DNA from: Sphingomonas panacis
Lineage (GTDB): Bacteria; Pseudomonadota; Alphaproteobacteria; Sphingomonadales; Sphingomonadaceae
Direction of reading: 5' to 3'
Assembly (NCBI RefSeq): GCF_001717955.1
Contig: NZ_CP014168.1
Coordinates: 62,001 to 126,000 of the forward strand
DNA length: 64,000 nt
The position numbers and the translations under genes were made by a program. The notes under the pieces are model-generated. The model ran no database searches. It was not told the DNA's origin and saw only the letters and a list, made by a program, of their open reading frames with translations. Shown piece after piece: positions 2,668 to 26,249 of this stretch (positions are counted from its first letter, which is position 1; each line of letters starts with the position of its first letter).

Positions 2668-4136
2668 CGCAAAGCGGCACGATCCTGGCGATCGATCAGG
2701 GGACGTCGAACACCAAGGCGCTGCTGATCGCGCCCGACGGAACCGTCATCGCCCGCGCGTCTCGGGCGATGACGCTGCAACACCCGCAACCCGGCTGGGC
2801 CGAACAATCCGCCGAGGCGATCTGGGCGAGCGTGCAGGCGGTCATCGCCGATCTGGTCGCACAAGCTCCCGACGACACGCCGGCCGCGTTGGCGATCAGC
2901 AACCAGCGCGAAACGATCGTGCTGTGGGATGCCGCGACAAGCAAGCCGCTCGCCCCCGCGATAAGCTGGCAATGCCGGCGCTCCTCGACGCGCTGCCATG
3001 CCTTGCGGGAGGCCGGGTACGAAGCACTGCTGCTGGCGCGAACCGGCCTCGGTATCGATCCACTTTTCCCCGCCGCCAAGCTGGCGTGGCTGCTCGATGC
3101 CGTACCGGACGCGCGCACGCGCGCGCAAGCGGGCGAACTGCGCGCGGGTACGATCGATGCGTGGCTGCTCTGGAACCTCACCGGCGGCGCGGTCCATGCG
3201 ACCGACCACGGCAACGCCTCGCGCACGCAATTGCTCGATCTGGAACGCGGCGCGTGGGACGCCGAGCTCGCCGCCTTGTTCGGCCTGCCGCTGTCGTTGC
3301 TCCCCGAGGTGCGCGCGTCGGACAGCCATTTCGGAACCGTTGTTGCGGGCGCGACCACGCTTTCCGCTGGCATCCCCGTACATGCGATGATGGGAGACTC
3401 CCACGCGGCCCTGTTCGGCCACGGCATCACCGCGCCGGGCGAGGCGAAGGTGACGATCGGCACGGGTTCGTCGATCATGACGCTCAGCGCGGCGCCGGTG
3501 CGGTCCGCCAACGGCCTGTCGGGCACGATCGCCTGGAGCCGGGCGGATGGCATCCGTTACGCCATCGAAGGCAACATCACCGTCTCGGGGCAAGCGGCGG
3601 CGTTCGCGACGCGGCTGCTGTCGGCCGCCGACGAAACCGCACTCTCGGCGCTTGCGCAGACAGTCGAGGACAGCGGCGGAGTGGTGTTCGTGCCCGCGCT
3701 CGCCGGGCTGGGCGCGCCGCATTGGCAGGATCGTGCACGCGGCCTCGTCACCGGCATGACGCTGGGGACCACCCCGGCGCATGTCGCGCGCGCCACCTTC
3801 GAGGCGATCGCGATGCAGATCGTCGACGTGTGCCGCGCGATGGAGGTCGATATCGGGGCGCCCCTGCCCGGCGTCTGCGTAGATGGCGGCGCGACCCGTG
3901 ACACCTTCCTGATGCAGTTGCTCGCCGACTTGCTCGATCGACCCGTAACGCGCCGCGCCAACGCCGAACTGAGCGCACTCGGCGCGGCGCGACTGGCGGC
4001 GGCGGCGATCGGCCTCGACCTCCCCGACGCGGCGGCGGACAGCACGGTTTTCCACCCGCTGATGAGGCCGGATCAGCGGAAAACAATTCACCGGACATGG
4101 CAAGCCGCCATCCGCCGGTCGTTGGTCGACGTCTGA
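2664..4136 (+). CDS. FGGY-family carbohydrate kinase (glycerol-kinase-like, altered substrate site)
   Basis: 490 residues from the GTG at 2664 that overlaps the transketolase stop. The N-terminal ATP-binding fold has DQGTSNTKAL. NQRET lies at residues 80-84, the catalytic base is Asp245 in MMGDSHAALFGHG, and GTGSS and GAPHWQDRARG follow. The overall layout matches glycerol kinase closely. However, the Tyr that packs on glycerol (in the family motif DPYF) is replaced by Leu (DPLF, residues 132-135). This argues for a different polyol or ketose substrate. Neighbouring split transketolase genes suggest a ketose kinase whose phosphorylated product is cleaved by the transketolase. Substrate candidates such as apulose are inference only, because no isomerase or dehydrogenase of such a pathway is visible. 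Confidence 0.82.
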   Translation: MTQSGTILAIDQGTSNTKALLIAPDGTVIARASRAMTLQHPQPGWAEQSAEAIWASVQAVIADLVAQAPDDTPAALAISNQRETIVLWDAATSKPLAPAISWQCRRSSTRCHALREAGYEALLLARTGLGIDPLFPAAKLAWLLDAVPDARTRAQAGELRAGTIDAWLLWNLTGGAVHATDHGNASRTQLLDLERGAWDAELAALFGLPLSLLPEVRASDSHFGTVVAGATTLSAGIPVHAMMGDSHAALFGHGITAPGEAKVTIGTGSSIMTLSAAPVRSANGLSGTIAWSRADGIRYAIEGNITVSGQAAAFATRLLSAADETALSALAQTVEDSGGVVFVPALAGLGAPHWQDRARGLVTGMTLGTTPAHVARATFEAIAMQIVDVCRAMEVDIGAPLPGVCVDGGATRDTFLMQLLADLLDRPVTRRANAELSALGAARLAAAAIGLDLPDAAADSTVFHPLMRPDQRKTIHRTWQAAIRRSLVDV

Positions 4137-5887: not shown

Positions 5888-7462
<1,575 letters not shown>

Positions 7463-9078: not shown

Positions 9079-9095
9079 GCTAGAGCATTTTTCGA

Positions 9096-9272
9096 TCAAA
9101 AAGCATCATATCCGCAGTGAGCGAAGTAATTTTTGCACTCTGCCGGGGTGAATTCGTCGATAGATTAACCGATAATGCGCCAGAGGTCATCAACCGTTCT
9201 GGCAGCGGCTTTGCGTAGCAAGGTCTTGAGTTTCGAGAAGGCGTTCTCGATCGGATTGAAGGCGATTGTACC
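9096..9272 (-). pseudogene. IS630-family transposase remnant (C-terminus only)
   Basis: Read on the minus strand, 9272 to 9096 gives TIAFNPIENAFSKLKTLLRK, then AAARTVDDLWRIIG, an in-frame TAA, and IDEFTPAECKNYFAHCGYDAF. This is the DDE C-terminal end of IS630-type transposases, where NPIE carries the last catalytic Glu. The N-terminal two thirds are missing and a nonsense codon interrupts the rest, so it is a dead fragment. It sits between the MFS gene and the receptor gene, at the left end of the aga locus. Confidence 0.75.
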
Positions 9273-9348: not shown

Positions 9349-12213
9349 TCAGAGGCGTGCACGCACCCCGAAGAAGAACGCGCGCCCGGTATATTCGTAA
9401 AAAGCCGGCACGTTGCTGTAACCCGAATAGCGCTGCGTTGCCGAATCGAGCAGGTTTGAACCCTGAACATAGACAGTCAATTGCGGCAGGATATCATACG
9501 AGATGCTGCTGGCGAGTTCGTGATACGGCTTCTGCTTGATCGCGAGCGTATTGATGTAGCTGTATTGCGACGAGGTGAAGCTCGACTGATACTGGTACGA
9601 CACCGATGCGTTGATGCCGTGCTTTTCGTAGAAGATCTTGGCGTTTGCCGAGAACGGCACGGCATCGGCAAGATCGGTCGTCACCTTGCCTTCGGTAATG
9701 GCACGCGAATGGTTGTAGGTCGCGTTCGCCTGGAAACCGAGGCCGTTATCCAAGAAATACTGGGCACCTGCCTCGATACCGTACACCTTGGCACTGTCGC
9801 CGTTGACATAGGTCGACTCGCTGAACGCGAAACTCGCCGGTGCATCCGGAACTTGGTTGGTCGGCACCAGCGTGACCGCAACAGTCTTCGTGGTCACGAA
9901 ATTGGTGATGTGTTTGTAGAAGCCCGCCAGCGTCAGCGCGATACGGCGGTTCGGGTAATATTCGAGCGAGATGTCCGCCTGATCGGCCGATGTCGGCTTG
10001 AGGTTTGGATTGCCTGCGTCGTTGATGACCGGCGTATTGGACTGTGCCGCGGAATAGTCCTTGGCGGACGAAAGCTCCCCGAATGTCGGACGCGACAGCG
10101 CCTGCGAAGCCGCCAGGCGGACCCGCAAGCCCCGCGCGAGATCGTAGGAGAAGTTCGCCGAGGGCAGCAGCCGCTGGTAGCTGCCGCCGCCATTGACCGG
10201 CGCGATCGGGTTGAACACCACGTTGGCGGTACCCACGCCGATCACTTTATAGCTTCGAACCGTCGCAACGTAGCCCAGCGAATCAACCGTCGTGTTGATG
10301 TAGCGCAGGCCGAAATCGCCCTTCCACCTGTCGCCGCCAACGTTGATCTGCGCATAGGCGTTCCAGGTCCGCTCCTTGATCGCATAGGAGGCGAGCTGAT
10401 CCGGCACGACCTGCTGCGTGCCGTAGCCGGTGGGATAGACTTGCCCGGTGTTGGGGTTGATGACGTTCGGGTTATTCTCCGCCTTCTGTAGCGACGACAG
10501 ATAGGTATTGATGTCGAACGCCGGGATCGAGCGCGGGAAGTTGCCCGACAGATTGGGCAGGATGTTGGTAAATTCGGGCGCCTGCACGACGTTGGCGCCG
10601 ATCGCCGAGAACGCGAACGGATAGCCGCCGAAATTGTTGGCGGTGGTGTACTGGTTGTCGATCACGTCGACGGTTTTCTTGCGATCGCTGAACACGCCGC
10701 CGAATGCGATGGAGCGGAGCAGGCCGTTATCCGCCTCATACAGCAGGTCGAGCTTGGCGCTGGTGCTGCGGTCGGCGATGTTCTGGCCCTGGATGCCGAT
10801 ATAATGCACGCGCAGATCCTGGTTGCCAGCCTGATCGAGCGTGCGGTTGGTCACCGTGCCATCGGCATTGGGGATGGTCAGGATCAGATCGGGCAAGCCG
10901 CCGTCGCGCGTCGCAACCTGCGCGCGCGAGCCCGGAATACCCGCCACCACGAAGCGGTTCTGGCCGCCGGTATTGTCAGACGCCTTGCCGTAGGAGACGT
11001 CCGCAGCGACCTTCAGGTTGCTGAGCGGCTTCCAGTCGATATGGCCGCCCACCTGGTATGTCACAGAATTGCGCGGCTCGTCGGTCGACAGCACGTCGAT
11101 CGTCGCGTCGTTGACGGTATAGTTGGTGAGAACCTTGTTCTTGTCGATCTGGACGTTGTTGAGATCGTAGCGAACGTTGCCGTCATTATCGAAGGGCGTC
11201 AGGCCGACCGAAACGCGGTGGTTGTGCTCGGTATCGGTATAGTTGCTGTAGATGCCGTCGATGCGAAGCTCGAAACTGTCAGAGGGTTTCCACTGATAGG
11301 CGGTCGATCCGCCCCAACGCTGGCGTTCGCCCTGCACATATCCGACGCTGTAGAAATATGGCTCGATCACGCCGCCGCCGTCCGGCACATTGACGACGCT
11401 ACGCTGCCCGCCCGGGCCGGTGACGATATCGTAGATGTCGTTGCTGGAATATTCGCCGAGATTGTCGGTGCGGAACTTGTACTTGTTGTACGTGCCCGAG
11501 ATCAGGAAGCCCATCGTGTCGTTGGCGAAGGTGGTGCTGACGACGCCCGACGCCTTGATGCCGCCCTTCTCGGCGAACTGGTTGTACTGGCCTTCGAGCG
11601 AACCGGCGGCATGAAAGCCGCGGTGATCGAATGGTCGCGCAGTGCGCAGATCGATATTGCCGCCGATGCTGCCTTCGAGCTGCGATGCCTGCGCCGCCTT
11701 CTGGATCTCGGCGCCCGAGATCACTTCTGACGGCAAAACGTCGAAAGCGAACGATCGGTCCGGGCCGTCGGTCGGCAGAACGCGACCGTTGAGCGTGGTC
11801 AGAGCGAAATTCTCGCCAAGTCCGCGCACGGTGACGCTGCGGCCCTCGCCACGACCATCGCGGCCGACCGTCACGCCGGGAATGTTCGAAAGCGCTTCCG
11901 CCACGTTGCGGTTGGGAAACTTGCCGAGTTCTTCGGCCGAGATCGCATCGACGATGGTGGAGGCGTCGCGCTTGGTGTCGATCGAGCGCAGCAAGCTGCC
12001 GCGCACGCCGCGCACGACGATGTCGCCGCCGGCATCACCGGTCGTCGCGGTCGCGTCGCCGCTCTGACCGGGGCCGGACTGGATGGTGGAGCCGGGGTTC
12101 GGCTGCTCGGTCGGCGAAACGGCCGTCTGGGCGATTGCCTGTGATCCCGCGATCAGTGCGGTCGCGCTGATGCCCGTGCGTGCGACGTTGCGCCATGTCC
12201 TAGCGTCGATCAT
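9349..12213 (-). CDS. TonB-dependent receptor, Caulobacter/Xanthomonas oligosaccharide type
   Basis: 954 residues with ATG preceded by GGGAGG. The order is: signal peptide (about 1-29), a low-complexity linker, a TonB box region (GGDIVVRGVRGSLLRSI), the plug (TIVDAISAEELGKFPNRNVAEALSNIPGV and RGLGENFALTTLNGR), then a beta-barrel ending in aromatic FFFGVRARL. The plug motifs match the large family of sphingomonad/Caulobacter/Xanthomonas receptors used for oligosaccharides. It is divergent from the GH27 gene and shares a 276-bp control region that holds an AgaR-like half-site. The likely cargo is a galactosamine- or galactose-containing oligosaccharide, inferred from the neighbours. No Fur-like site was seen upstream. 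Confidence 0.88.
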   Translation of the reverse strand: MIDARTWRNVARTGISATALIAGSQAIAQTAVSPTEQPNPGSTIQSGPGQSGDATATTGDAGGDIVVRGVRGSLLRSIDTKRDASTIVDAISAEELGKFPNRNVAEALSNIPGVTVGRDGRGEGRSVTVRGLGENFALTTLNGRVLPTDGPDRSFAFDVLPSEVISGAEIQKAAQASQLEGSIGGNIDLRTARPFDHRGFHAAGSLEGQYNQFAEKGGIKASGVVSTTFANDTMGFLISGTYNKYKFRTDNLGEYSSNDIYDIVTGPGGQRSVVNVPDGGGVIEPYFYSVGYVQGERQRWGGSTAYQWKPSDSFELRIDGIYSNYTDTEHNHRVSVGLTPFDNDGNVRYDLNNVQIDKNKVLTNYTVNDATIDVLSTDEPRNSVTYQVGGHIDWKPLSNLKVAADVSYGKASDNTGGQNRFVVAGIPGSRAQVATRDGGLPDLILTIPNADGTVTNRTLDQAGNQDLRVHYIGIQGQNIADRSTSAKLDLLYEADNGLLRSIAFGGVFSDRKKTVDVIDNQYTTANNFGGYPFAFSAIGANVVQAPEFTNILPNLSGNFPRSIPAFDINTYLSSLQKAENNPNVINPNTGQVYPTGYGTQQVVPDQLASYAIKERTWNAYAQINVGGDRWKGDFGLRYINTTVDSLGYVATVRSYKVIGVGTANVVFNPIAPVNGGGSYQRLLPSANFSYDLARGLRVRLAASQALSRPTFGELSSAKDYSAAQSNTPVINDAGNPNLKPTSADQADISLEYYPNRRIALTLAGFYKHITNFVTTKTVAVTLVPTNQVPDAPASFAFSESTYVNGDSAKVYGIEAGAQYFLDNGLGFQANATYNHSRAITEGKVTTDLADAVPFSANAKIFYEKHGINASVSYQYQSSFTSSQYSYINTLAIKQKPYHELASSISYDILPQLTVYVQGSNLLDSATQRYSGYSNVPAFYEYTGRAFFFGVRARL

Positions 12214-12307
12214 CTTCCGTCCTCCCTTTGACGATGAAGCCGCCAGCGACGATACGCTTGACGAGCGATTTGTTGCGCTTTGCTACCTCGCGCGAAACAA
12301 AGTTGTC

Positions 12308-12325
12308 AAACGCTTTAAAACGAAA
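12308..12325 (-). promoter_or_regulatory. AgaR-like operator, degenerate (receptor/GH27 divergent region)
   Basis: On the minus strand the site reads TTTCGTTTTAAAGCGTTT. It keeps the first TTTCGTT unit of the locus consensus TTTCGTTAYGYTTCGTTT; the second unit, 10 bp on, is altered (AGCGTTT). A further GAAACAAAG lies at 12294-12302. It is placed to control both the receptor and the GH27 gene. Confidence 0.4.
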
Positions 12326-12489
12326 CTAAGGGATAGCGCATGGACGTGGCAAATACACCACTCGTGGGATCGACGGGCAGGACCGCAGGTTCGGCGGACC
12401 TGATATTATCGACGCCCAGAATTCAGCACCGCGTCGCCCCGAGGCGATGTGCCTAACATATGGTCTCGCGACGTTTCGGAGAAAGTTGC

Positions 12490-14343
12490 ATGAAAACAAC
12501 GAGAAAGTCGTCGGCACTGGTGTGGACGAGGGCGGCTTCGTTCGCCGTGCTTGCTGCCACCCTCGCCCAGCCGACGCATGCGCAAGTCGCGTCGCTTACG
12601 CCGTCCGGCGCATTCTCGGTCTATCAGACCAGCGCCGCCCAGACGCCGCCGATGGGCTGGAACCCGTGGAACGCATTTCACACCGATGTCGACGAAGCCA
12701 AGATTCGCGCCGTCGCCCGCACGATCGTCGACAGCGGGCTGGCGCGCAAAGGCTATCGCTTCATCAACATCGATGATGGCTGGGCTTTGCGGCGCCTCGC
12801 CGACGGGCGACTCCGCATTCGCGACAGTATGTTCCCATCAGCGAAAATCCCCGCAAGCGATACGGGGTCGTTCAAGCCGTTCACCGACTATATCCATAGC
12901 CTCGGCCTCAAGGCTGGCCTGTACACGGATATCGGCCGGAACACGTGCGCACAGGTTTGGGATGCCAACAGCCCCAATTTGCCGGTCGGCACGGTCGCCG
13001 AACGGCAAGTGGGCAGCTTCGGCCATGCCGCACAGGACATGCGGACGATGTTCGCGGATTGGCGGTTCGACTACGTCAAGATCGATGCGTGCGGAGTCGC
13101 GGATTACACGCGCGACGTCGCACCGGTGAAAGCCGGCGATTATCAGGCGTTTGCGCCGCTGATCGTGCGGGGCAATATCCCCGAGTCCGATCCGGCTTCG
13201 GTGGAGAAGCTCTATGCAACGCTGGGCGATGCGGTGCGCCGCTGGGGCGGCGAGGCGGCGGTGCTGTCGATTTGCGCCTGGGGTGAGGCGCTGTCGCCGC
13301 TCTGGGGCCATGTGCGCGGCAATCTGTGGCGGACCAGCCCCGACATCGAATTTACCTGGAAGAGCATGCTCGGCAACATCGACAGCATGGTCGACGGTGC
13401 ACTCTACGCCGGGCCGGGGCATTGGAATGACCCCGACATGCTCGCGATCGGTCACGGCGATTTCGATGCGACTCATCTCGTCGAGGCGCGGTCACATTTC
13501 ACGATGTGGGCGATCATGGCCTCCCCGCTGCTGCTCGGCTATGATGTGCGCAAGCCCGCGCCGGCGTTGCTCGACATCGTGGGCAACCCCGAGGTGATCG
13601 CGATCGATCAGGATGCGGCCGGCAACCAGGGTGTGCCGTATCGCGACGGCGACGCGATGGTCGTCGTTCGCACGCTGACCAGCCCCGGTGCGCGCGCGGT
13701 GGCGATGTTCAACCGCGGCACGGAGCCCGTCACGGCTCAAGTCCGTTGGGAGCAGCTCGGCTTCGCGCCAGGCAGCCGCGCGACCGTGCGCGATGTCTGG
13801 GCGCGGCGGAACCGCGCGACGGCCGCGGGCACGATCACGGCGGAACTGCCGGCACACGGCGCCGTATTGCTGCGCGTGGAGGGGACTCCCGCAGACCCGG
13901 ATACCGTCCCGCTCGACGAGATGCCCGCCCGCGTCAACATCGCCGTCGATGGACTTTCGCCCGCCACCGCATTGCCGATGGGCCAGTTTCCGGCACGGAT
14001 CAATACGGCGCCCGACGGGACGCCGCTGAGCGTGAACGGCAAGCACTTCGCCAAGGGGATCGGTCTGTTCGCCAATTCGCGAGTCGAGCTTCGCGCGAGC
14101 GGGCAGTTTCATCGTTTCGTCGCCACGCCGCTGGTGCTGAGCGGCGCGCAACCGGTTCGGTTCCGGGTCTATGCCGATCGCAAGCTTGTCGCAGAAACGT
14201 CGGTCACACCGTCGCTTGAACCGCATGCGATCGACGCCGACGTGACGGGCGCCAAGGTAGTCGAACTGGTCGCCGAGGGGCCGAATGATCCGCGTGTGCG
14301 ACCTGCGATGATCGCGTGGGGCGCCGCCGGGTTTAAGCGGTGA
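12490..14343 (+). CDS. GH27 alpha-galactosidase / alpha-N-acetylgalactosaminidase, secreted, with C-terminal NPCBM-like domain
   Basis: I chose the ATG at 12490 (GGAGAAAG 5 nt upstream) over an in-frame upstream start at 12460; this gives 617 residues. The signal peptide runs to about residue 32. The GH27 barrel shows PPMGWNPWNAF, FINIDDGW, nucleophile Asp199 in FDYVKIDACG and acid/base Asp285 in WRTSPDIEFTWKSM. At the substrate-specificity loop the sequence is SICAWGEAL. The position normally occupied by Glu or Asn in alpha-galactosidases is Ala263, a small residue as in N-acetylgalactosaminidases. The C-terminal 130 residues (from about 490) resemble an NPCBM module. It is divergent from the receptor and lies upstream of agaR. 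Cleavage of terminal alpha-GalNAc (or alpha-Gal) outside the cytoplasm is expected. Confidence 0.85.
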   Translation: MKTTRKSSALVWTRAASFAVLAATLAQPTHAQVASLTPSGAFSVYQTSAAQTPPMGWNPWNAFHTDVDEAKIRAVARTIVDSGLARKGYRFINIDDGWALRRLADGRLRIRDSMFPSAKIPASDTGSFKPFTDYIHSLGLKAGLYTDIGRNTCAQVWDANSPNLPVGTVAERQVGSFGHAAQDMRTMFADWRFDYVKIDACGVADYTRDVAPVKAGDYQAFAPLIVRGNIPESDPASVEKLYATLGDAVRRWGGEAAVLSICAWGEALSPLWGHVRGNLWRTSPDIEFTWKSMLGNIDSMVDGALYAGPGHWNDPDMLAIGHGDFDATHLVEARSHFTMWAIMASPLLLGYDVRKPAPALLDIVGNPEVIAIDQDAAGNQGVPYRDGDAMVVVRTLTSPGARAVAMFNRGTEPVTAQVRWEQLGFAPGSRATVRDVWARRNRATAAGTITAELPAHGAVLLRVEGTPADPDTVPLDEMPARVNIAVDGLSPATALPMGQFPARINTAPDGTPLSVNGKHFAKGIGLFANSRVELRASGQFHRFVATPLVLSGAQPVRFRVYADRKLVAETSVTPSLEPHAIDADVTGAKVVELVAEGPNDPRVRPAMIAWGAAGFKR

Positions 14344-14414
14344 CACCACTTTGAGCAGCGAGAGGGACGCGCTTTCCGCCGATGCAACGACATTGTTGCT
14401 TGCCGCGAACGGCG

Positions 14415-14431
14415 AGCGCGACATAACGAAA
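14415..14431 (-). promoter_or_regulatory. AgaR-like half operator upstream of agaR
   Basis: The minus strand reads TTTCGTTATGTCGCGCT. The first ten bases match the consensus TTTCGTTAYG exactly and the second unit is decayed. The site lies 25-41 bp before the regulator start, where autoregulation would act. Confidence 0.4.
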
Positions 14432-14455
14432 CGCATGTGATGACAGGCGGTGAGA

Positions 14456-15295
14456 ATGCCGATCATGAACGACGCAGTTGAGCAAGGAACGACAAGAATG
14501 ATCCGGGACACCAGCGAGCGACGGTTGTGGATCAGCACGCAGGTCCGCGAGCGCGGCAGCGTCCAGGTGGCGCCGCTTGCCGAGCGGTTCGGCGTCTCGA
14601 TGCAAACGATCCGCAAGGATCTGCGCTTCCTCGAACAGCGCGGTGTGATGGAGCGCTCCTATGGCGGCGCGATCAGCGCGGACGCAGTCAACGCCAGCAT
14701 GGAGAACGCCGTCAACGTCACCGCGGAACCCGCTGTCGAAGTCAAACGGTCGAGCCATGCCGATGAGAAGATGCGCATCGGCAAACGCGCCGCCGCGATG
14801 GTGTCGCCTGGTGAATCGATCGTGCTCGATTCGGGTACGACAACGCTCCAGATCGCGCGCTTCCTGCCCGATGACGAGGACATCACCGTCCTGACCAACG
14901 ATCTCGACATCCTTTCGGTGCTGGCCACGAAGGAGCGTCTCAACATCGTCATGCTCGGTGGCATGCTGCGCCGGAAGAACCGCGCGTTCTACGGTGCGCA
15001 AACCGTCGCGGCGCTGGAGGATCTGCGCGTCGACAAGCTATTTCTCGGCGTCGACGGGTTCGATATCGAATGCGGCATCACCACGCATTACGAGCCCGAG
15101 GCGATCCTCAACCGCAAGATGGTCGAAGCGGCGCGCGACGTGATCGCGGTGACCGACGTGTCCAAGTTCGGGCGAGTCTGCCTGCACCGGATCGTCTCGG
15201 TGGAGAACATCCATCACCTCGTCACCGAGGCCAAGGTGCCCGACGACATCCGCGCGGCATCCGCTCGGCTGGGGTTCCGTATCCACGAGGCCTGA
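14456..15295 (+). CDS. agaR: DeoR-family transcriptional regulator, AgaR-like
   Basis: 279 residues from the ATG at 14456, which AGGCGG precedes by about 5 nt; a GTG at 14450 and ATGs slightly downstream are alternatives. The N-terminal winged helix has VQVAPLAERFGVSMQTIRKDLRFLEQRG followed by the DeoR hallmark MERSYGGAI. The C-terminal sugar-phosphate-sensing domain has DSGTTTLQIARFLP, VLTNDLDIL, MLGGMLRRKNRAFYG, FLGVDGFD and the closing VTDVSKFGR. Its neighbours (agaZ, agaS, agaK, GH27, GH36) match the galactosamine regulon controlled by AgaR in other proteobacteria. It probably represses through the TTTCGTT repeats found before those genes, with galactosamine-6-phosphate or tagatose-6-phosphate as the likely inducer class (inference). 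Confidence 0.8.
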   Translation: MPIMNDAVEQGTTRMIRDTSERRLWISTQVRERGSVQVAPLAERFGVSMQTIRKDLRFLEQRGVMERSYGGAISADAVNASMENAVNVTAEPAVEVKRSSHADEKMRIGKRAAAMVSPGESIVLDSGTTTLQIARFLPDDEDITVLTNDLDILSVLATKERLNIVMLGGMLRRKNRAFYGAQTVAALEDLRVDKLFLGVDGFDIECGITTHYEPEAILNRKMVEAARDVIAVTDVSKFGRVCLHRIVSVENIHHLVTEAKVPDDIRAASARLGFRIHEA

Positions 15296-15336
15296 TCGTC
15301 GTACCGAGCGGGCGCGCGGCCCCCTCCGTACGACGA
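15296..15336. terminator. Hairpin immediately after agaR, between convergent genes
   Basis: TCGTCGTAC (15296-15304) pairs with GTACGACGA (15328-15336). It begins directly after the agaR stop codon and ends 8 bp before the end of the convergent amidohydrolase gene. No U-tract is evident. Confidence 0.5.
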
Positions 15337-15344
15337 CCCGTGCG

Positions 15345-16451
15345 TTACCCCTTCAGGTGGAAGAAGCGGCGCGCGTTGGAATAGTAGATCTTGTCGATGA
15401 CGCTGCGTGGCAGCGCGAGGCCGGGCGCGTCCGCTTTGATGGCGGCGATCGGCTGCGACAACGACGTGGCCAGATAGCGCCAGTCGGAACGCCAGTTATC
15501 GTCGGCTTCCTTGGCGAAATTGCCGGTGGCGGGCGGGTTCTGCGCGCGCGCCTTGGGATCGGGCGGGCTATCGGTCAGGTCGGTGCCGTACATCAGCCGG
15601 TCCTGGTATTTGAGGAAGAAGGCGCGGACCTTGGCGTGGTTGGCGTTCGACTGGACCTGAACCTGGCTCATCCGCGCCGCCAGATCGACGACGGCATTGG
15701 GATAGCGATCGAGGAAGCTCGCGAGTTCGTCCACGCTCCATTCGAGGCTCGCCATATGCGCGCCGTCGAAGGCGAGCTTGGGATGCCGCGCCACGAAGCG
15801 GTCGCGCGCGGCCATGAGTTGCTCGTACCGCGGCTCCTCGGGGTGCTTGTACATGTAATATTCGGGGTGTTCGCTGAAATAGGTGCGGTCGTTGTCCGTT
15901 GTCATCTGATCGAGCGGGAGCCAGCAATTCTTCGGCTCGCCCTGATGCGCGATCAGCGGCACGCCGCGCGCCTGGATATGCGCCATGATGGGATCGAAGC
16001 GCGGATCGTCGAGGAACACGCGCTTGCCCGCCGTGTCCTTCGCGATCATGCCGATGTTCTTCCACACCTTCACCGCGACCGCGCCGTGCGCGAAGCCGGC
16101 ATCGACCGCGCGGGTCGCCTGCGCGGTCCAGTCCTTGCCGCCGAAACCGTCCATCGAGAAGGTCGTCGCGAAGTGGAAGCGCTTGGGGTCGGCGGCGTGC
16201 ATCTTGTATGCGATCGTCGCCTGGGTCGCGAGCGGCGGGAAATCGGGATAATCGACGTTGATCGAGAGCAGTTCGAAGCCGTCCTTGCGCGCGACGCGCA
16301 GGAAATCGCGCGCGTCGCGGTTGGCGTGGACGTGCGCGTCGAGCTTGGGGACGCGGGCGAAGTCGGCTTCGCTGTAGACCGGCGCGGCCGGGGCGGCGGC
16401 GGTCAGCGCCACGGTGGAAGCCAAAGTGAGGAAGGTTGCCCATCGGCGCAT
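15345..16451 (-). CDS. Secreted amidohydrolase-family (PF04909-like) metal-dependent hydrolase
   Basis: 368 residues from the ATG at 16449-16451 with GGAG upstream. The minus frame stays open much further upstream, but that part is antisense to the GH36 gene. A Sec signal peptide (MRRWATFLTLASTVALTAAA) leads into VPKLDAHVHAN, the metal-binding HxH motif. LIAHQGEPKN, LAFDGAHMASLEW and LMYGTDLTDSPP supply the other barrel ligands. The fold is the TIM-barrel amidohydrolase_2 type, which includes lactonases and decarboxylases. It is not the NagA/AgaA deacetylase type. It shares the divergent control region, with a near-perfect AgaR-like operator, with the GH36 gene. A periplasmic step on a galactosamine derivative is possible but unproven. 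Confidence 0.75.
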   Translation of the reverse strand: MRRWATFLTLASTVALTAAAPAAPVYSEADFARVPKLDAHVHANRDARDFLRVARKDGFELLSINVDYPDFPPLATQATIAYKMHAADPKRFHFATTFSMDGFGGKDWTAQATRAVDAGFAHGAVAVKVWKNIGMIAKDTAGKRVFLDDPRFDPIMAHIQARGVPLIAHQGEPKNCWLPLDQMTTDNDRTYFSEHPEYYMYKHPEEPRYEQLMAARDRFVARHPKLAFDGAHMASLEWSVDELASFLDRYPNAVVDLAARMSQVQVQSNANHAKVRAFFLKYQDRLMYGTDLTDSPPDPKARAQNPPATGNFAKEADDNWRSDWRYLATSLSQPIAAIKADAPGLALPRSVIDKIYYSNARRFFHLKG

Positions 16452-16462
16452 CGGAATTCTCC

Positions 16463-16480
16463 AAACGAAACGTAACGAAA
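16463..16480 (-). promoter_or_regulatory. AgaR-like operator, two intact repeats (amidohydrolase/GH36 divergent region)
   Basis: The minus strand reads TTTCGTTACGTTTCGTTT, two TTCGTT units 10 bp apart. It differs from the agaZ site at only two of 18 positions. It lies about 12 bp before the amidohydrolase start and about 100 bp before the GH36 start. Confidence 0.6.
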
Positions 16481-16577
16481 TCGATCTTATGTTGCGTTTT
16501 GGTTTGCGCAAGCCTTGGTGATCGGGCACATCGACATTCAAGGCCGCTAAGCGGCTTGCTCCGTGGGAGGCTTGTTC

Positions 16578-18659
16578 GTGTCGCAGTTCCGCATATCCCG
16601 TCGTAGCGCGCTTACTGGCGCGGCGGCGATGTTCCTCTCCTCGCCGGGGTTCGCGCGGGTCGCGATCAAGGACGCGCCGATCACCAAGGTGAGCGACGGC
16701 GTTCTCACCATCGAATTCGATTCCGGGCTGCACTCGCGCATCTCGCGCGGCGGCACCGTGCTGACCGCGATGGAGCCGGGGGAGGCGATCCGGCTCGGCG
16801 ACCAGCGCGTTGTCGACCGTTTCCTGCTGCTCGACCAGACCCGCGAGGCGGTATCGGGCGCGCATGGCCCGGGCCATGTCCATCATCTGCGCGGCGGCGC
16901 CGATTGGCTTGAGAAGCGCATCTCCGTCACCTTTCTCGATCGCTATCCCGGTCTTGCCTTGCTCGACATCACCTATCGCAACACCGGCGCCGCGCCGCTC
17001 GAAATCCTCGGCTGGCAGGCGGCGACTCACGACCTGCTCGCGCACCCGGAGGGCGCGTGGAGCTTCTCGGGGGCATCCTATCCCGATCGTCGCGACTGGG
17101 TGCAAAAGGTCGCGCCGGGCTTCGGTCAGCGCAATTTCATGGGGATGAACGCGTCGGATTACGGCGGCGGCACCCCGGTCGCGGTGGTGTGGCGGCGCGA
17201 CGCCGGCATAGCCGTCGGCCATATCGATACGGTGCCGCGCCTCGTGTCGCTCCCGGTCGGTGGCCAGCCGACGGGCACGCGCATCGCCATCGCCAGCGAC
17301 ACCGCCACATTGCTTGCGCCCGGCGCGACACTGGCGCTGCCGCCGGTGTTCCTGATGGTGCAGCAGGGCGACCATTTCCGCCCGCTCGACGCCTATCGCC
17401 GGCTGATGGCCGAGCGCGGCATCGCCGCGCCGGCGATCCCCGAGCCGAGCTACGCGCCGGTGTGGTGCGCGTGGGGCTATGGCCGTGACTTCACCACCAC
17501 CGAAGTCCTCACCGCGATGGGCAAGGCCAAGGCGATCGGACTCGAATGGGCGGTGCTCGACGATGGCTGGCAGACCTCGGAGGGCGACTGGAAGCTCAAC
17601 CCGGCCAAATTCCCCCGCGGGGACGCCGACATGAAGGCGTTCGCCGGCGCGATCAAAGCCGGCGGCATGCGGCCACGACTGTGGCTCGCCCCGCTCGCGG
17701 CGGACCCCGGCACCGATCTGCTGCGCGACCATCCCGACATGCTTCTGCTCGACCAGAATGGCGCCGCGCAGAACGTCAGTTTCTGGGACGCCTTCACGCT
17801 CTGCCCGGCCTATCCGCCGGTGGTGGAGTATTTCCGCGGCCAGATCCGCCGCATCCTCGGCTGGGGCTTCGAGGGACTCAAGCTCGACGGCCAGCACCTC
17901 AACGGCGTCGCGCCCTGCTACAACCCGGCGCATAACCATGCCCGGCCCGAGGAATCCTACGAAAAGCTCCAGGATTTCTGGAAGGCGCTCTACGACGAGG
18001 CGATCTCGATCAACCCGCAAGCGGTGATGGAAATCTGCCCCTGCGGCGATTCCTTCGCGTTCCACAACATCCCCGGCATGAACCACACGCCGGCCTCGGA
18101 CCCGACCTCGTCGTGGCAGATCCGGCTCAAGGGCAAGAGCTTCAAGGCGATGATGGGGCCGTCGGCGCCGTTCGCCGGCGACCATGTCGAGCTGAGCGAC
18201 CGGCATAACGACTTCGCGACGCATTACGGGATCGGCGCGATCCTCTCGACCAAATTCACCTGGCCGAACGATCCGGTCAACACCACCGATCCATTGCCGC
18301 CGGGCGGCATCGCGCTCAACCCTGAAAAGGAAGCGTTGTGGCGCAAGTGGATCGCTTTGTACCACGCCAACATGCTGCCCAAGGGCGAGTATCTCGGCGC
18401 GCTGTACGACATCGGCTTCGACAAGCCCGAGGGGCACGCGATCCGCGCGGGTGGACAGATGCATTACGCTTTCTACGCCGATCGCTGGTCCGGCCCGGTC
18501 GCGTTGCGCGGACTGCCGCCGGGCCGCCATCGCCTCACCGATGGCTTCACCGGCCAGCCGCTCGGCACCGTGAGCGGCCCCGAAGCGACCATCCCCGCCC
18601 GCTTCGAGCATTTCCTGCTCGTCCAGGCCACGCCAATCGATGGAAAGACCGCCGCATGA
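16578..18659 (+). CDS. GH36-type alpha-galactosidase / alpha-N-acetylgalactosaminidase, Tat-exported
   Basis: The GTG at 16578 is the best start because GGGAGG sits 7 nt upstream at 16565-16570; an in-frame GTG at 16563 would leave no ribosome site. The protein has 693 residues with a twin-arginine signal (ISRRSALTGAAAMFL). An N-terminal beta-supersandwich precedes the clan-D barrel, which has PVWCAWGYGRDFT, WAVLDDGWQ and RPRLWLAPLAAD. The nucleophile is probably Asp437 in GLKLDGQHL. A Cys-rich loop (EICPCG) follows, and Asp508 in HTPASDPTSSWQIR is the probable acid/base. Its stop overlaps the DMT permease start (ATGA), so hydrolysis and import look coupled. It is expected to cleave alpha-linked Gal or GalNAc in the periplasm; specificity cannot be read with certainty. 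Confidence 0.82.
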   Translation: MSQFRISRRSALTGAAAMFLSSPGFARVAIKDAPITKVSDGVLTIEFDSGLHSRISRGGTVLTAMEPGEAIRLGDQRVVDRFLLLDQTREAVSGAHGPGHVHHLRGGADWLEKRISVTFLDRYPGLALLDITYRNTGAAPLEILGWQAATHDLLAHPEGAWSFSGASYPDRRDWVQKVAPGFGQRNFMGMNASDYGGGTPVAVVWRRDAGIAVGHIDTVPRLVSLPVGGQPTGTRIAIASDTATLLAPGATLALPPVFLMVQQGDHFRPLDAYRRLMAERGIAAPAIPEPSYAPVWCAWGYGRDFTTTEVLTAMGKAKAIGLEWAVLDDGWQTSEGDWKLNPAKFPRGDADMKAFAGAIKAGGMRPRLWLAPLAADPGTDLLRDHPDMLLLDQNGAAQNVSFWDAFTLCPAYPPVVEYFRGQIRRILGWGFEGLKLDGQHLNGVAPCYNPAHNHARPEESYEKLQDFWKALYDEAISINPQAVMEICPCGDSFAFHNIPGMNHTPASDPTSSWQIRLKGKSFKAMMGPSAPFAGDHVELSDRHNDFATHYGIGAILSTKFTWPNDPVNTTDPLPPGGIALNPEKEALWRKWIALYHANMLPKGEYLGALYDIGFDKPEGHAIRAGGQMHYAFYADRWSGPVALRGLPPGRHRLTDGFTGQPLGTVSGPEATIPARFEHFLLVQATPIDGKTAA

Positions 18660-19573
18660 GCACAAGCGCCTCCCCAAGCGGCCGCGCCTGGCTGCTCAAC
18701 GCCCTCGCCACCGTCGTGCTGTGGGGTATCTGGGGCGCGTTCTCCGGGCTGTCGCCGCAGCACGGTTTCCCTGAGACGCTGGTCTATTGCGTGTGGGCGC
18801 TGACGATGATCCCGCCCGCACTGATCGTGCTCGGGCTGGCGAAGTGGAAGCTCGACGTCAATCCGCGCGCGATCGCTTATGGTCTCGCGGTCGGCGTGCT
18901 CGGCGCGGGCGGGCAGATGGTGCTGTTCTACGCGGTCACGCGCGGGCCGGCCTATCTGATCTTCCCGGTGATTTCGCTGTCGCCGGTCGTCACCATCGCC
19001 TTGTCGTTCCTGTTCATGGGCGAGCGCACCGGACGGCTCGGCGCGGTCGGCATCGCGCTCGCGCTGCTCGCGCTGCCGACCTTCGATTTCGCGCCGGGTG
19101 GTGATGCGCATGGCGGCGGCTGGCTGGTGCTGGCGGTGATCGTGATGCTGTGCTGGGGGCTTCAGGCCTATTTCATGAAATCGGCCAATCACATCATGTC
19201 GGGCGAGAGCATCTTCTTCTACATGACGGTGACGGGGCTGGCCTTGGTGCCCGTCGCGCTGGCGCTGACCGACTTCAGCCGTCCGATCAATTATGGTCTC
19301 GATGGCCCTGCCCTCGCCGCCCTGATCCAGATGCTCAACGCGGTCGGCGCGCTGACTTTGGTGTTCGCGTTCCGATACGGCAAGGCGATCATCGTCGCGC
19401 CGCTGACCAACGCCGGCGCACCGCTCGCCACCGCGATCATCTCGCTCATCGCGCTGAGCGTGGTGCCGGGGCCGATCAAGCTGGTCGGTATCGGCCTCGC
19501 GCTGGCGGCATCGTTGATGCTCGCGATCGAGCCGGACGCGAAGGACGAGACGACCTTGGCCGCAGATGCCTAA
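18656..19573 (+). CDS. DMT/EamA-superfamily permease, candidate sugar importer
   Basis: 305 residues with ATG overlapping the GH36 stop by 4 nt. About ten hydrophobic segments are visible, beginning WLLNALATVVLWGIWGAFSG. The repeat halves have conserved Gly/Pro-rich ends (GPAYLIFPVISLSPVVTIALS and, in the second half, KAIIVAPLTNAGAPLATAI), as in EamA/DMT transporters. No PTS, ABC or GPH importer is encoded in the locus. Translational coupling to the GH36 enzyme therefore makes this the best candidate for bringing the released amino sugar through the inner membrane. In described galactosamine loci this step is done by a PTS or an AgaP/NagP-like permease, so the use of a DMT protein would be unusual. 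It could instead be an exporter. Confidence 0.75.
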   Translation: MSTSASPSGRAWLLNALATVVLWGIWGAFSGLSPQHGFPETLVYCVWALTMIPPALIVLGLAKWKLDVNPRAIAYGLAVGVLGAGGQMVLFYAVTRGPAYLIFPVISLSPVVTIALSFLFMGERTGRLGAVGIALALLALPTFDFAPGGDAHGGGWLVLAVIVMLCWGLQAYFMKSANHIMSGESIFFYMTVTGLALVPVALALTDFSRPINYGLDGPALAALIQMLNAVGALTLVFAFRYGKAIIVAPLTNAGAPLATAIISLIALSVVPGPIKLVGIGLALAASLMLAIEPDAKDETTLAADA

Positions 19574-19588
19574 ACGATCCCAGCAATG

Positions 19589-19606
19589 TTTCGTTATGCT
19601 TCGTTT
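19589..19606 (+). promoter_or_regulatory. AgaR-like operator, two intact repeats, upstream of agaZ
   Basis: The plus strand reads TTTCGTTATGCTTCGTTT, with two TTCGTT units 10 bp apart. It lies 51-68 bp before the agaZ start and directly after the permease gene. It marks a separate promoter for the agaZSK operon. Confidence 0.6.
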
Positions 19607-19656
19607 TCTTGCATTAAGTACGCTGCGGCCCTAAAGGTGGCGAAAGGAGGGATTCG

Positions 19657-20940
19657 ATGGAAATGATTCGAAATCTCGTCGCTGATCACAAAAGCGGCAA
19701 ACGTGTCGGCGTCACCTCGGTCTGTTCGGCGCACCCGCTCGTGATCGAGGCGACGTTCCGGCACGCGCTGCGCAACGCCGCGCCGTTCGTGCTGATCGAG
19801 GCGACGTCCAACCAGGTCAATCAGGACGGCGGCTATACGGGTATGGTGCCCGTCGCTTTCCGTGCGTTCGTCGAAGCGATCGCGACACGGCTCGATTTCC
19901 CGCTCGATCGGCTCGTGCTGGGCGGCGACCATCTCGGCCCCAACGCCTGGACCAGCCTGCCAGCCGACGCCGCGATGGCCAAGGCCGAGGTGATGATCGC
20001 CGATTATGTCCGCGCCGGTTTCGCCAAGATCCATCTCGATTGCTCGATGAGTTGCGCCGACGATCCCGCGCCGCTCCCCGAACGCACCATCGCCGAGCGC
20101 GCCGCGCGGCTGTGCCGAGTCGCCGAGGACGCCTATTCCGGCCATCCCGCCGAAGCGCCGGTCTATGTGATCGGCACCGAAGTGCCGGTGCCGGGCGGTG
20201 CCGCCGAGGATCTCGACACGCTCGCGGTGACCACGCCCGAAGCGGCGCTGGCCACGCTCGACATGCACCGCGCGCTGTTCCGCGAGCGGGGCTTGCAGGA
20301 CGCGTGGGAGCGGGTGATCGCGACCGTGGTCCAGCCGGGCGTCGAGTTCGACCATATGAAGGTGGTCGATTACCGCCCTGACGCCGCGACCGCGCTCAGT
20401 GCCGCGATCGTGCCGGTCGATCACGTCGTCTTCGAGGCGCATTCGACCGATTACCAGACGCCGGCAGCGCTGAGCGCTTTGGTGCGCGACCATTTCGCGA
20501 TTCTCAAGGTCGGGCCGGGCGTCACCTTCGCCTTGCGCGAGGCTTTATGGGCGCTCGACGCGATCGAGCGTGAAACCGTGGCGCCAGCCAGGCGCGCAAA
20601 TCTGCGTGACGTCGCGATCGCCCGGATGAAGGCCGAGCCGGGCCATTGGCGCAAATATTACCACGAGACCGGCGACGCGCTCGATCTACAACTGCAATAC
20701 AGTCTGAGCGACCGCATCCGCTATTACTGGCCCGACGCCGAGATCGCCGCGGCGCAGGGGCGGCTTTTCGACAATCTGCGTGGCGAAGTCCCGCCGCTGC
20801 CGCTGCTCAGCCAATATCTGCCCATCGCCTACGCGGCGGTGCGCGATGGCACCGCGACACTGGACCCGATCGATCTGATCGTCGCGCACATCGGCGCGAC
20901 GCTCGATGCTTATCATGGAGCCTGCAATCCCAATGTTTGA
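19657..20940 (+). CDS. agaZ: AgaZ/GatZ/KbaZ-family protein of tagatose-6-phosphate metabolism
   Basis: 427 residues, ATG with AAAGGAGG upstream. Conserved segments are GVTSVCSAHPLVIEATFRHA, LIEATSNQVNQDGGYTGM, LVLGGDHLGPNAW, KIHLDCSMSCADDP, VYVIGTEVPVPGGA and VFEAHSTDYQTPAAL; these are diagnostic for the GatZ/KbaZ/AgaZ family and full length for it. In enterobacteria the family stabilises the GatY/KbaY class II aldolase; it was earlier annotated as tagatose-6-phosphate kinase. No GatY/KbaY partner is encoded here, so either a distant aldolase or another activity must supply the step. It is the first gene of the agaZSK operon, preceded by its own AgaR-like operator. Confidence 0.9.
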   Translation: MEMIRNLVADHKSGKRVGVTSVCSAHPLVIEATFRHALRNAAPFVLIEATSNQVNQDGGYTGMVPVAFRAFVEAIATRLDFPLDRLVLGGDHLGPNAWTSLPADAAMAKAEVMIADYVRAGFAKIHLDCSMSCADDPAPLPERTIAERAARLCRVAEDAYSGHPAEAPVYVIGTEVPVPGGAAEDLDTLAVTTPEAALATLDMHRALFRERGLQDAWERVIATVVQPGVEFDHMKVVDYRPDAATALSAAIVPVDHVVFEAHSTDYQTPAALSALVRDHFAILKVGPGVTFALREALWALDAIERETVAPARRANLRDVAIARMKAEPGHWRKYYHETGDALDLQLQYSLSDRIRYYWPDAEIAAAQGRLFDNLRGEVPPLPLLSQYLPIAYAAVRDGTATLDPIDLIVAHIGATLDAYHGACNPNV

Positions 20941-22075
20941 AACCACCCTTGCGGCCGATCAGCCGGCCGCAGGCGCCGAAAGCTGGACGCGGCGCGAAAT
21001 CCTGCAACAGCCCGCGACCTTGCGCGCGACCCAGGCGGTGCTCGACGCGACTCGCGCCGACATCGAAGCTTTCGTGCAGCCGTTGCTCGACCTGCCCGAT
21101 CTGCGCATCATGCTGTGCGGTGCCGGCACCTCGGCCTTCATCGGCGAATGTCTGGCACCGTGGTTGACCGCGACGCTGCGCCGCCCGGTCGAGGCGGTGG
21201 CGACCACCGATATCGTCAGCGCGCCGCATTTGTATCTCGATGCCGCGCGGCCGACGCTGATGGTGTCGTTCGGCCGGTCAGGCAACAGCCCGGAGAGCAT
21301 CGCCGCGGTCGATCTCGCCGATGCGCGCGTCGCCGCGATCCATCACCTCGTCATCACCTGCAACGCGGAGGGCGCGCTGTCGCGGCGGGCTTCGGGCAAC
21401 AACCATGTCGTGCTGCTGCCCGAGGCGACGCATGACCGGGCGTTCGCGATGACCTCGAGCTTCAGCGCGATGATGCTCGCGGCGTTATCGATCTTCACCG
21501 GGCTCGGCGCGATGCCCGCGCGTGTCGAGGCGATCGCGCGCGCGGTCGACGCGATGCTTGCGCGATCGGAAGGCGAGGCAGCCGCGCTCGCCAGTGCCGA
21601 TTTCGAGCGGGTGGTGTATCTCGGCAGCGGCGTGTTCCAGGGGCTTGCCCGCGAGGCAGCGCTGAAACTGCTTGAGCTGACCGACGGCGCGATCCCGACC
21701 GCGTTCGATTCGTCGCTCGGCTTCCGGCACGGCCCCAAGACGATCGTGACGCCGCGCACGTTGGTGGTGGTGTTCGTCTCGAACGATCCGCTCACCCGGC
21801 TGTACGATCTCGACATGATCGCGGAGTTGCGCGGCGACGGGCGCTGCGGTGCGGTGATCGTTATCGCCGCGCAGGATACGGACGGCGAAACCCTGCAGGT
21901 GGAGGGCGCGGCCGGGTTCGCCGATGCCGATCTGCTGTTCCCCTACATCGTGTTTCCGCAACTCTACGGGCTGCATTGCTCGCTGCGCCTCGGTCGCACG
22001 CCCGACCAGCCCAATGCGAGCGGCACCGTCAACCGCGTCGTGCAGGGCGTCCGTATCCACACGCTGGCGGCATGA
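20933..22075 (+). CDS. agaS: AgaS, galactosamine-6-phosphate deaminase/isomerase (SIS domains)
   Basis: 380 residues if started at ATG 20933, overlapping the agaZ stop; ATG 20915 is an alternative. Two SIS domains carry the segments CGAGTSAFIGE, VSFGRSGNSPES, EATHDRAFAMTSSF, YLGSGVFQGLAREAALKLLE, GFRHGPK and the C-terminal ASGTVNRVVQGVRIH. All of these line up with E. coli AgaS from memory. The known reaction is deamination and isomerisation of D-galactosamine-6-phosphate to D-tagatose-6-phosphate in the cytoplasm. The strength of the match makes AgaS the anchor for naming the whole locus as galactosamine catabolism. Confidence 0.92.
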   Translation: MFETTLAADQPAAGAESWTRREILQQPATLRATQAVLDATRADIEAFVQPLLDLPDLRIMLCGAGTSAFIGECLAPWLTATLRRPVEAVATTDIVSAPHLYLDAARPTLMVSFGRSGNSPESIAAVDLADARVAAIHHLVITCNAEGALSRRASGNNHVVLLPEATHDRAFAMTSSFSAMMLAALSIFTGLGAMPARVEAIARAVDAMLARSEGEAAALASADFERVVYLGSGVFQGLAREAALKLLELTDGAIPTAFDSSLGFRHGPKTIVTPRTLVVVFVSNDPLTRLYDLDMIAELRGDGRCGAVIVIAAQDTDGETLQVEGAAGFADADLLFPYIVFPQLYGLHCSLRLGRTPDQPNASGTVNRVVQGVRIHTLAA

Positions 22076-22998
22076 CTATATTCCTCGGCGTCGATGGCGG
22101 CGGCACCAAGACCGAGTTCGTCTGCATCGACGAGAGCGGGCAGGTGGTGGCGCGCGCGCTGACCGGCACGACCTATCATCTTCAGGTGGGTTTCGATGAG
22201 GCGGTCAGGCGGCTCGCCGAGGGGATCGGCGCGGTGTGCGCGCAGCTAGCCATATCCGCCGCCGAAATTCGCTACGCGTTTTTCGGTCTGCCCGCGTTTG
22301 GTGAGGATGCTGCCGTCGATCCGCTGCTTGCCGCCGCGTGCGGACGGCTGCTCGGGCATGATCGCTATGCGTGCGACAACGACATGGTGTGCGGCTGGGC
22401 GGGTTCGCTCGCGTGTGCCGACGGCATCAACCTCGTCGCCGGCACCGGATCGATCGGCTATGGCGAGCGGCAGGGCCGCAAGGCGCGTGTCGGCGGCTGG
22501 GGCGAGATGTTCAGCGACGAGGGCTCTGCCTATTGGATCGCCATCCAGGGGCTCAACGCCTTCACGCGGATGAGCGACGGTCGGTTGCCGGTGGGGCCGC
22601 TGCACGACGGTTTCCGTGCGGCGCTCGGTCTGGCGAACGACCTCGACATCTGCGCGAAGGTGATGGGCGAACACGGCATGGCGCGCGATGCGATCGCCGG
22701 GCTCGCTCCGATCGTCTCGCAGGCGGCCGAGGCTGGCGACATGGCGGCGGCGGCGATTTTGGAGCAAGCGGGCGCGGAACTTGCGGGACTCGCACAGGCG
22801 CTGCGCAAGCGGTTGGGGTTCGCCGACGAGGAGACCGTGCTGCTGTCCTGGTCGGGCGGGGTGCTGACCAAATTGGATACGGTGCGGACGCCGTTCCTGC
22901 GCAGCCTGCAAGCGCAATCTCGCTACGAAATCGTCGAGCCGCGCCACACGCCGGGCGTCGGTGCCGCACTATACGCGGCGCTGATGGCGCAAGCCTGA
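22072..22998 (+). CDS. agaK: AgaK-like amino-sugar kinase (BadF/BadG/BcrA ATPase family)
   Basis: 308 residues with ATG overlapping the agaS stop by 4 nt. The N-terminal phosphate loop GVDGGGTKTEFVCID, the middle NLVAGTGSIGYG and RVGGWGEMFSDEGSAYWI, and the C-terminal WSGGVL and PGVGAALYAAL are typical of N-acetylhexosamine kinases of the BadF/BadG fold. In the Shewanella-type pathway AgaK phosphorylates N-acetylgalactosamine. Its presence instead of PTS components fits non-phosphorylating import of free sugar, consistent with the DMT permease. The hairpin just after the gene suggests that the operon ends here. GalNAc against GlcNAc preference cannot be read from sequence. Confidence 0.85.
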   Translation: MTIFLGVDGGGTKTEFVCIDESGQVVARALTGTTYHLQVGFDEAVRRLAEGIGAVCAQLAISAAEIRYAFFGLPAFGEDAAVDPLLAAACGRLLGHDRYACDNDMVCGWAGSLACADGINLVAGTGSIGYGERQGRKARVGGWGEMFSDEGSAYWIAIQGLNAFTRMSDGRLPVGPLHDGFRAALGLANDLDICAKVMGEHGMARDAIAGLAPIVSQAAEAGDMAAAAILEQAGAELAGLAQALRKRLGFADEETVLLSWSGGVLTKLDTVRTPFLRSLQAQSRYEIVEPRHTPGVGAALYAALMAQA

Positions 22999-26213: not shown

Positions 26214-26249
26214 GCAACCTCCCGTTCGCTTCGACCTATACAGCGGCCA

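Follow-up and report, generated by a model that had tools for sequence, protein, structure and literature searches.

A probable AgaR-controlled cassette for alpha-galactosaminide utilization in Sphingomonas panacis

Gene content of the locus

The genome of Sphingomonas panacis (5.32 Mb in two contigs, completeness 100%) contains a cluster of nine genes at positions 9349–22998 of the 64-kb stretch of DNA analysed here (the window). Profile searches against Pfam and NCBIfam assigned these genes to a TonB-dependent receptor, two glycoside hydrolases (GH27 and GH36), an AgaR repressor, an amidohydrolase, an EamA permease, AgaZ, an AgaS-like protein and an AgaK-like kinase, and we consider that they probably form an AgaR-controlled cassette for the utilization of alpha-galactosaminides. 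An earlier note, made from the sequence alone, had described the locus as a unit for galactosamine catabolism in which uptake by a TonB receptor is combined with exported alpha-glycosidases, a permease of the DMT type and a kinase in the cytosol, a description that was supported. All the genes that it had listed (agaR, agaZ, agaS-like, agaK-like, receptor, GH27, GH36 and permease) were confirmed, and the amidohydrolase gene at 15345–16451 had been omitted. The features of the locus are as follows:

9349–12213, minus strand: TonB-dependent receptor of the TIGR01782 type (577.7 bits, cut-off 310), divergent from the GH27 gene
12460–14343, plus strand: exported GH27 protein with a C-terminal NPCBM domain (PF16499, PF08305, PF17801)
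14450–15295, plus strand: AgaR, DeoR-family repressor (NF040755, 276.2 bits, above the cut-off of 260)
15345–16451, minus strand: metallohydrolase of the Amidohydro_2 family with a signal-like N-terminus, inside the cluster and on the opposite strand
16464–16480, plus strand: candidate AgaR operator AACGAAACGTAACGAAA, between the amidohydrolase and GH36 genes
16563–18659, plus strand: GH36 protein with a twin-arginine-type signal, predicted alpha-D-galactosaminidase (PF02065, 51.3 bits, cut-off 27)
18656–19573, plus strand: EamA/DMT inner-membrane permease, presumed galactosamine importer (PF00892, 79.7 bits, cut-off 28.2)
19589–19605, minus strand: another AgaR operator candidate, preceding agaZ
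19657–20940, plus strand: AgaZ (GatZ/KbaZ family), predicted D-tagatose-6-phosphate 4-epimerase (TIGR02810, 623.6 bits, cut-off 568.8)
20906–22075, plus strand: AgaS-like SIS protein, predicted galactosamine-6-phosphate deaminase/isomerase (TIGR02815, 468.9 bits, under the cut-off of 529.2)
22072–22998, plus strand: AgaK-like sugar kinase of the BadF/BcrA family, presumed galactosamine kinase (PF01869, 177.0 bits, cut-off 31.5)

Start codons were chosen by us, and the overlaps that depend on them (4 bases between the GH36 and EamA genes, up to 35 between agaZ and the agaS-like gene, and 4 between the latter and the kinase gene) are in line with an organization in operons. The scan of the genes at 9349–22998 detected no phosphotransferase system (PTS) gene, no AgaA and no AgaY/KbaY.

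Sugar release and predicted route to fructose-6-phosphate

The GH36 protein showed its best matches in the PDB with 9awt (2.6e-70) and its variant 9ayu (5.2e-70), both labelled as A-type-blood alpha-D-galactosamine galactosaminidase. According to PMC11762096, the active site of this Flavonifractor plautii enzyme (FpGalNase) comprises W317, D346, D347, W387, K461, D463, Y464, C513 and D532; the D463, C513 and D532 mutants are almost inactive, and C513 and D532 lie outside the patch conserved with alpha-galactosidase. Residues were matched by reading the alignment of the PDB match, in which a 2-residue gap beside K440 was re-set by hand, and eight of the nine were found to be kept in GH36: W304, D333, D334, W374, K440, D442, C494 and D513. 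Ten columns, corresponding to the nine FpGalNase sites plus C492, were invariant in all 81 cassette sequences (the window and the 80 related loci described below). Given a galactosaminidase as best PDB match and the conservation of eight active-site residues, free galactosamine (GalN) is the likely product of GH36. By eye, the N-terminus of the protein contains a twin-arginine-like SRRSAL motif together with a hydrophobic stretch, suggesting that it is probably exported in a folded state. Its best named relative among the matches listed belongs to Sphingomonas populi (95%), in agreement with the sphingomonad-like origin proposed previously.

Further information on the sugar was sought in GH27. 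At the site where four (1uas, 6f4c, 4nzj and 4ogz) of the five GH27 structures displayed have Cys-Glu-Trp-Gly, the window copy has Cys-Ala-Trp-Gly. In alpha-galactosidases the Glu of this motif reads the 2-OH of the sugar. Twenty GH27 rows were compared, 17 of which were usable (L077 is truncated at the site, and L119 and L128 are of another type), and none of these CxWG-type copies has the Glu (8 Ala, 6 Thr, 2 Asn, 1 Leu). This loss hints at a 2-substituted sugar, without separating GalN from N-acetylgalactosamine (GalNAc), and it is not decisive, since 3a21, labelled as a putative secreted alpha-galactosidase, has Cys-Asn-Trp-Gly at the same site. The sugar predicted to be released is best supported as GalN rather than GalNAc. 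Regarding the scavenging of alpha-GalNAc glycans suggested in the earlier note, GalN is the better supported sugar, given the PDB match of GH36 and a locus without agaA.

Regarding the cytosolic steps, the best PDB match of the AgaS-like protein was 3c3j (2.1e-98), described as a "putative tagatose-6-phosphate ketose/aldose isomerase". AgaZ matched PF08013 (613 bits, cut-off 26.7) besides TIGR02810, and so belongs to the GatZ/KbaZ family. PMC11907403 reports that GatZ and KbaZ convert fructose-6-phosphate to tagatose-6-phosphate in E. coli cells, and discusses seven GatZ active-site residues from models. All seven are present in AgaZ (C23, E48, D91, H92, E175, H262 and K284) and in 73/73 cassette copies. 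The genome lacks any match to class II aldolases (PF01116) or to phosphofructokinase (PF00365), and the same searches were positive in 11 and 9, respectively, of 14 control genomes. Four PfkB-type matches were present in the genome, one being a ThiD over its cut-off, one similar to KDG kinases and two unassigned, and none of them exceeded the cut-off for 1-phosphofructokinase, 6-phosphofructokinase II or tagatose kinase. The absence of class II aldolase, phosphofructokinase and curated tagatose-6-phosphate kinase matches argues against AgaZ acting as an aldolase chaperone. Moreover, PF01116 is absent in five of the eight AgaZ-bearing genomes of the family, so that in at least five genomes AgaZ must act without AgaY. 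Judging from these sequence comparisons, epimerization of tagatose-6-phosphate to fructose-6-phosphate is the most likely role of AgaZ and the simplest way of closing the pathway.

Based on these data, the following pathway can be proposed. Oligosaccharides with alpha-linked galactosamine would reach the periplasm through the TonB receptor, where the exported GH36, together with GH27 in this strain, would release GalN, as similarity and active-site residues suggest. The amidohydrolase may conceivably act on the substrate beforehand, e.g. by taking off acetyl groups. The EamA permease would then carry GalN across the inner membrane, and the AgaK-like kinase would phosphorylate it. From its similarity to the AgaS family, the AgaS-like protein is predicted to convert GalN-6-phosphate to tagatose-6-phosphate and ammonia. 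AgaZ would next invert C4 to give fructose-6-phosphate directly, as its homology to GatZ/KbaZ and the absence of an aldolase route suggest. Fructose-6-phosphate would enter central metabolism, presumably via the Entner-Doudoroff pathway in sphingomonads, making AgaA, AgaY and a tagatose-6-phosphate kinase dispensable.

Distribution, candidate operators and flanking genes

For the distribution of the locus, 199 sampled family genomes were searched (E ≤ 1e-60 for AgaZ and GH36, 1e-40 for the amidohydrolase). Each of the three proteins was found in the same eight genomes, and all eight contain the TonB receptor, AgaR, amidohydrolase, GH36, EamA, AgaZ, AgaS and AgaK genes clustered. In three of the other seven family genomes bearing the cassette, the receptor is only 32–34% like that of the window. 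Named genomes were also scanned with an alignment of eight GH36 sequences, and the best 80 of 222 relatives were kept as related loci, which by genus name belong to Sphingomonadales, Caulobacterales, Oxalobacteraceae, Alteromonadales and actinobacteria. Each gene was scored in tblastn searches with the window proteins as queries, at bit thresholds chosen by us, and counts refer to the 66 long loci (at least 18 kb), many of which are close kin, so that the counts are non-independent. AgaR, AgaS and AgaK were each present in 63, EamA and AgaZ in 62, the amidohydrolase in 60, the TonB receptor (counted if above 100 bits) in 59, GH27 in 18 and a NagA-like gene in three. AgaZ, AgaS and AgaK were found together in 60/66, and together with EamA, the amidohydrolase and AgaR in 57/66, which indicates that the gene set is not due to chance. 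The six loci lacking the complete trio were L099 (only GH36 and GH27), L115 and L117 of Kribbella (both without AgaZ), L119 (no AgaK), L127 (neither AgaS nor AgaK) and L128 (neither AgaZ nor AgaS).

Identity to the window receptor ranged from about 25 to 92% in the related loci, in comparison with a steadier 45–95%, roughly, for the core enzymes, and the receptors therefore look interchangeable. Hence, a fixed enzyme core seems to be coupled to swappable receptors and accessory proteins, the latter being GH27 and a protein of about 520 residues. This last protein, of twin-arginine translocation (TAT) type, adjoins the cassette in 10/80 related loci: L084 (16335–17897) and, with 74–82% identity to the L084 copy, L066, L070, L076, L080–L083, L086 and L133. 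Four copies were scanned and matched no Pfam family, except for a TAT signal in one of them. Its AlphaFold model was of poor quality; it is maybe an unrecognised glycosidase.

The amidohydrolase deserves separate consideration. Its HxH, Lys, His, His and Asp columns were invariant in 70/70 sequences, and we take them to resemble the ligand set of binuclear metallohydrolases. The structure was predicted with confidence, and its fold matches were TIM barrels of the Amidohydro_2 type that indicated no function; phmmer searches of the PDB with E up to 10, solved deacetylases included, gave no relevant match. Its signal-like N-terminus suggests that it is probably exported. Because it is present in 60/66 long loci and adjoins the shared repeat described below, it probably acts on the same substrate as the rest of the cassette. 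An N-deacetylase would be our favoured guess for its activity, albeit a tentative one. A wider proposal is rather doubtful: it sees the cassette as an alpha-galactosaminide pathway complete in itself and found widely among Proteobacteria, with the amidohydrolase as a new family of periplasmic N-deacetylases turning alpha-GalNAc ends into alpha-GalN ends for GH36, and with a stand-alone AgaZ epimerase yielding fructose-6-phosphate. Were it true, the cassette would have evolved separately, in environmental bacteria, as a counterpart to the deacetylase/galactosaminidase pair of F. plautii.

The candidate AgaR operator is a direct repeat with a 10-bp period, located before the GH36 and amidohydrolase genes and before agaZ. 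The pattern AACGAARCRTAACGAAA, derived from the two promoters that it then matches, occurs with zero mismatches at 16464–16480 and 19589–19605, and with 3 mismatches at a site before agaR; shuffled sequences gave a mean of 0.17 sites at up to 3 mismatches, and 0/100 reached three sites. For a broader check, ACGAA-N5-ACGAA was counted in the window locus (15 kb) and the 80 related loci, 1.63 Mb in total, yielding 18 sites in 12/81 sequences; 14/18 lie upstream of cassette genes, in regions that make up 12.6% of the bases. Leaving the window out, 12/16 sites were upstream (binomial 2e-8, assuming independent sites, which related loci are not). Fifteen other spacers (0–4 and 6–15) gave 0–9 sites each, and spacers 0 (3/4), 1 (4/5) and 10 (5/9) likewise lean upstream, as repeats of 5-bp units might. 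The repeat is thus credible as a candidate operator in a subset of the loci. Since the exact form is absent from 69/81 sequences, most of them must carry a diverged form or another operator.

On its right side the cassette adjoins GH31 and GH42 genes (23547–28331), which have no counterpart above 120 bits in the 80 related loci, indicating that the right-hand boundary is correct. To the left of the receptor gene, an intergenic, stop-containing stretch (9085–9260, minus strand) reads as the C-terminus of a transposase-like protein, presumably resembling IS630, and the locus may therefore border a decayed insertion element. Farther away, the window encodes a transketolase divided between an N-half and a C-half gene, with an FGGY kinase similar to glycerol kinases after them (923–4136, plus strand), and a Sde182-type nucleoside-hydrolase-like "cellulose-binding" protein (5888–7462, minus strand) flanked by a carboxylesterase and an MFS transporter.

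Alternative routes and comparison with known systems

Several observations weigh against the cassette as proposed. The structure 8x1b, labelled alpha-galactosidase, is a near-equal match to GH36 (6.0e-70), the PDB matches that follow it, also labelled alpha-galactosidase, starting from 4.3e-15. Y464 of FpGalNase is replaced by G443, with Gly in 81/81 copies, so that the two pockets differ. The missing Glu of GH27 is also compatible with GalNAc, and no GH114 endo-enzyme was matched in the genome. The AgaS-like protein remained under the TIGR02815 cut-off (468.9 vs. 529.2), hence its name; no curated AgaK model matched the kinase, which was recognised only by NF046058 (NagK) at 86.1 vs. 370, and its sugar was consequently deduced from the neighbouring genes. 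One class I aldolase match is present in the genome (31.1 vs. a cut-off of 22.2 bits, model positions 10–186 of 349; 0/14 control genomes gave one). Three AgaZ-bearing genomes of the family (G138, G140 and G164) have one class II aldolase each, away from the cassette, as do 2/4 of the AgaZ-less genomes tested. Two Kribbella loci (L115 and L117) contain a GalNase-like GH36 with AgaR-, AgaS- and AgaK-like genes and no AgaZ match. Finally, one nagA over its cut-off lies elsewhere in the genome (contig C1, 996858–997862, at about 0.997 Mb), adjoining a NagB-II-like gene, and this NagA could deacetylate imported GalNAc after phosphorylation.

This NagA is central to a Shewanella-like GalNAc route, in which GH27 and GH36 would release GalNAc in the periplasm and the imported sugar would be processed through GalNAc-6-phosphate by the chromosomal NagA, AgaS and AgaZ. 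Such a route is consistent with the replacement of AgaA by NagA in E. coli (PMC3668189), with a GH27 lacking the Glu in 17/17 readable CxWG-type copies and with a NagA-like gene beside the cassette in three Duganella loci. We consider it unlikely, since the best PDB match of GH36 acts on non-acetylated GalN and most of its residues are kept, a NagA-like gene above 80 bits is missing from 63/66 long loci, and GH27 occurs in only 18/66. Very improbable is the textbook tagatose route, with AgaZ serving an aldolase and tagatose-6-phosphate being phosphorylated and cleaved to trioses: TIGR02810 describes AgaZ as a non-catalytic aldolase subunit and one class I aldolase match exceeds its cut-off, but the genome has no PF01116 or phosphofructokinase match (LacD-type aldolases were not part of the search) and none of the four PfkB proteins is a curated tagatose-6-phosphate kinase or 1-phosphofructokinase. 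These estimates are not mutually exclusive, the textbook route being compatible with either substrate. The locus might also serve plain alpha-galactosides, with GH27, GH36, GH31 and GH42 as galactosidases and the aga genes as coincidental neighbours. The adjoining GH31 and GH42 genes and the PDB matches of GH27 and GH36, mostly labelled alpha-galactosidase (8x1b included), fit this idea; it is made scarcely credible by the occurrence of GH36 and AgaZ in the identical 8/199 genomes, the absence of GH31 and GH42 from the 80 related loci and the repeat common to the upstream regions of GH36 and agaZ.

If the alpha-galactosaminide cassette is right, non-acetylated alpha-galactosamine would be a regular nutrient for environmental Sphingomonas, Massilia and Duganella, and environmental bacteria would supply relatives of the galactosaminidase that serves in group A blood conversion. 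The amidohydrolase would provide a possible new enzyme activity that can be tested. The usual role of AgaZ would also change in genomes without an aldolase partner; a 2025 gut review still gives GatZ and KbaZ as aldolase subunits (PMC12118421).

Among the titles and abstracts listed in searches of the open-licence literature, no description of the cassette was found, which does not prove its absence from print. The earlier note had contrasted the layout with known pathways; the genes are indeed present, but a TonB receptor, permease, AgaK and AgaS have already been described for GalNAc in Shewanella (PMC2996990), and therefore the layout alone is not new. The Shewanella pathway (omp-Aga, AgaP, AgaK, AgaS, AgaA-II) shares the TonB receptor, a non-PTS permease, a cytosolic kinase and AgaS, whereas S. 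panacis has an EamA permease instead of AgaP and a locus without AgaA, which contains a conserved amidohydrolase and a GH36 resembling GalNase. The E. coli aga/gam system (PMC3668189) has AgaR, AgaS and AgaZ/KbaZ in common, and differs in its PTS gene, AgaA and AgaY/KbaY, absent from the S. panacis locus. With the GalNAc deacetylase and galactosaminidase of F. plautii (PMC11762096 and PMC12703440) the cassette shares a GH36 whose best PDB match is FpGalNase, with eight of nine residues, and possibly deacetylation before hydrolysis; the differences are Gly in place of Tyr464 and an amidohydrolase without sequence match to any solved deacetylase. The E. coli C4 epimerases GatZ and KbaZ (PMC11907403) are of the same family as AgaZ and agree with it in all seven active-site residues, but here no class II aldolase was found in the genome and the predicted step is a catabolic one starting from GalN. 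Overall, the cassette appears to be a well-conserved version of the known Aga/galactosamine pathway, with a shorter route to fructose phosphate than the textbook one, and its most novel part is the conserved amidohydrolase.

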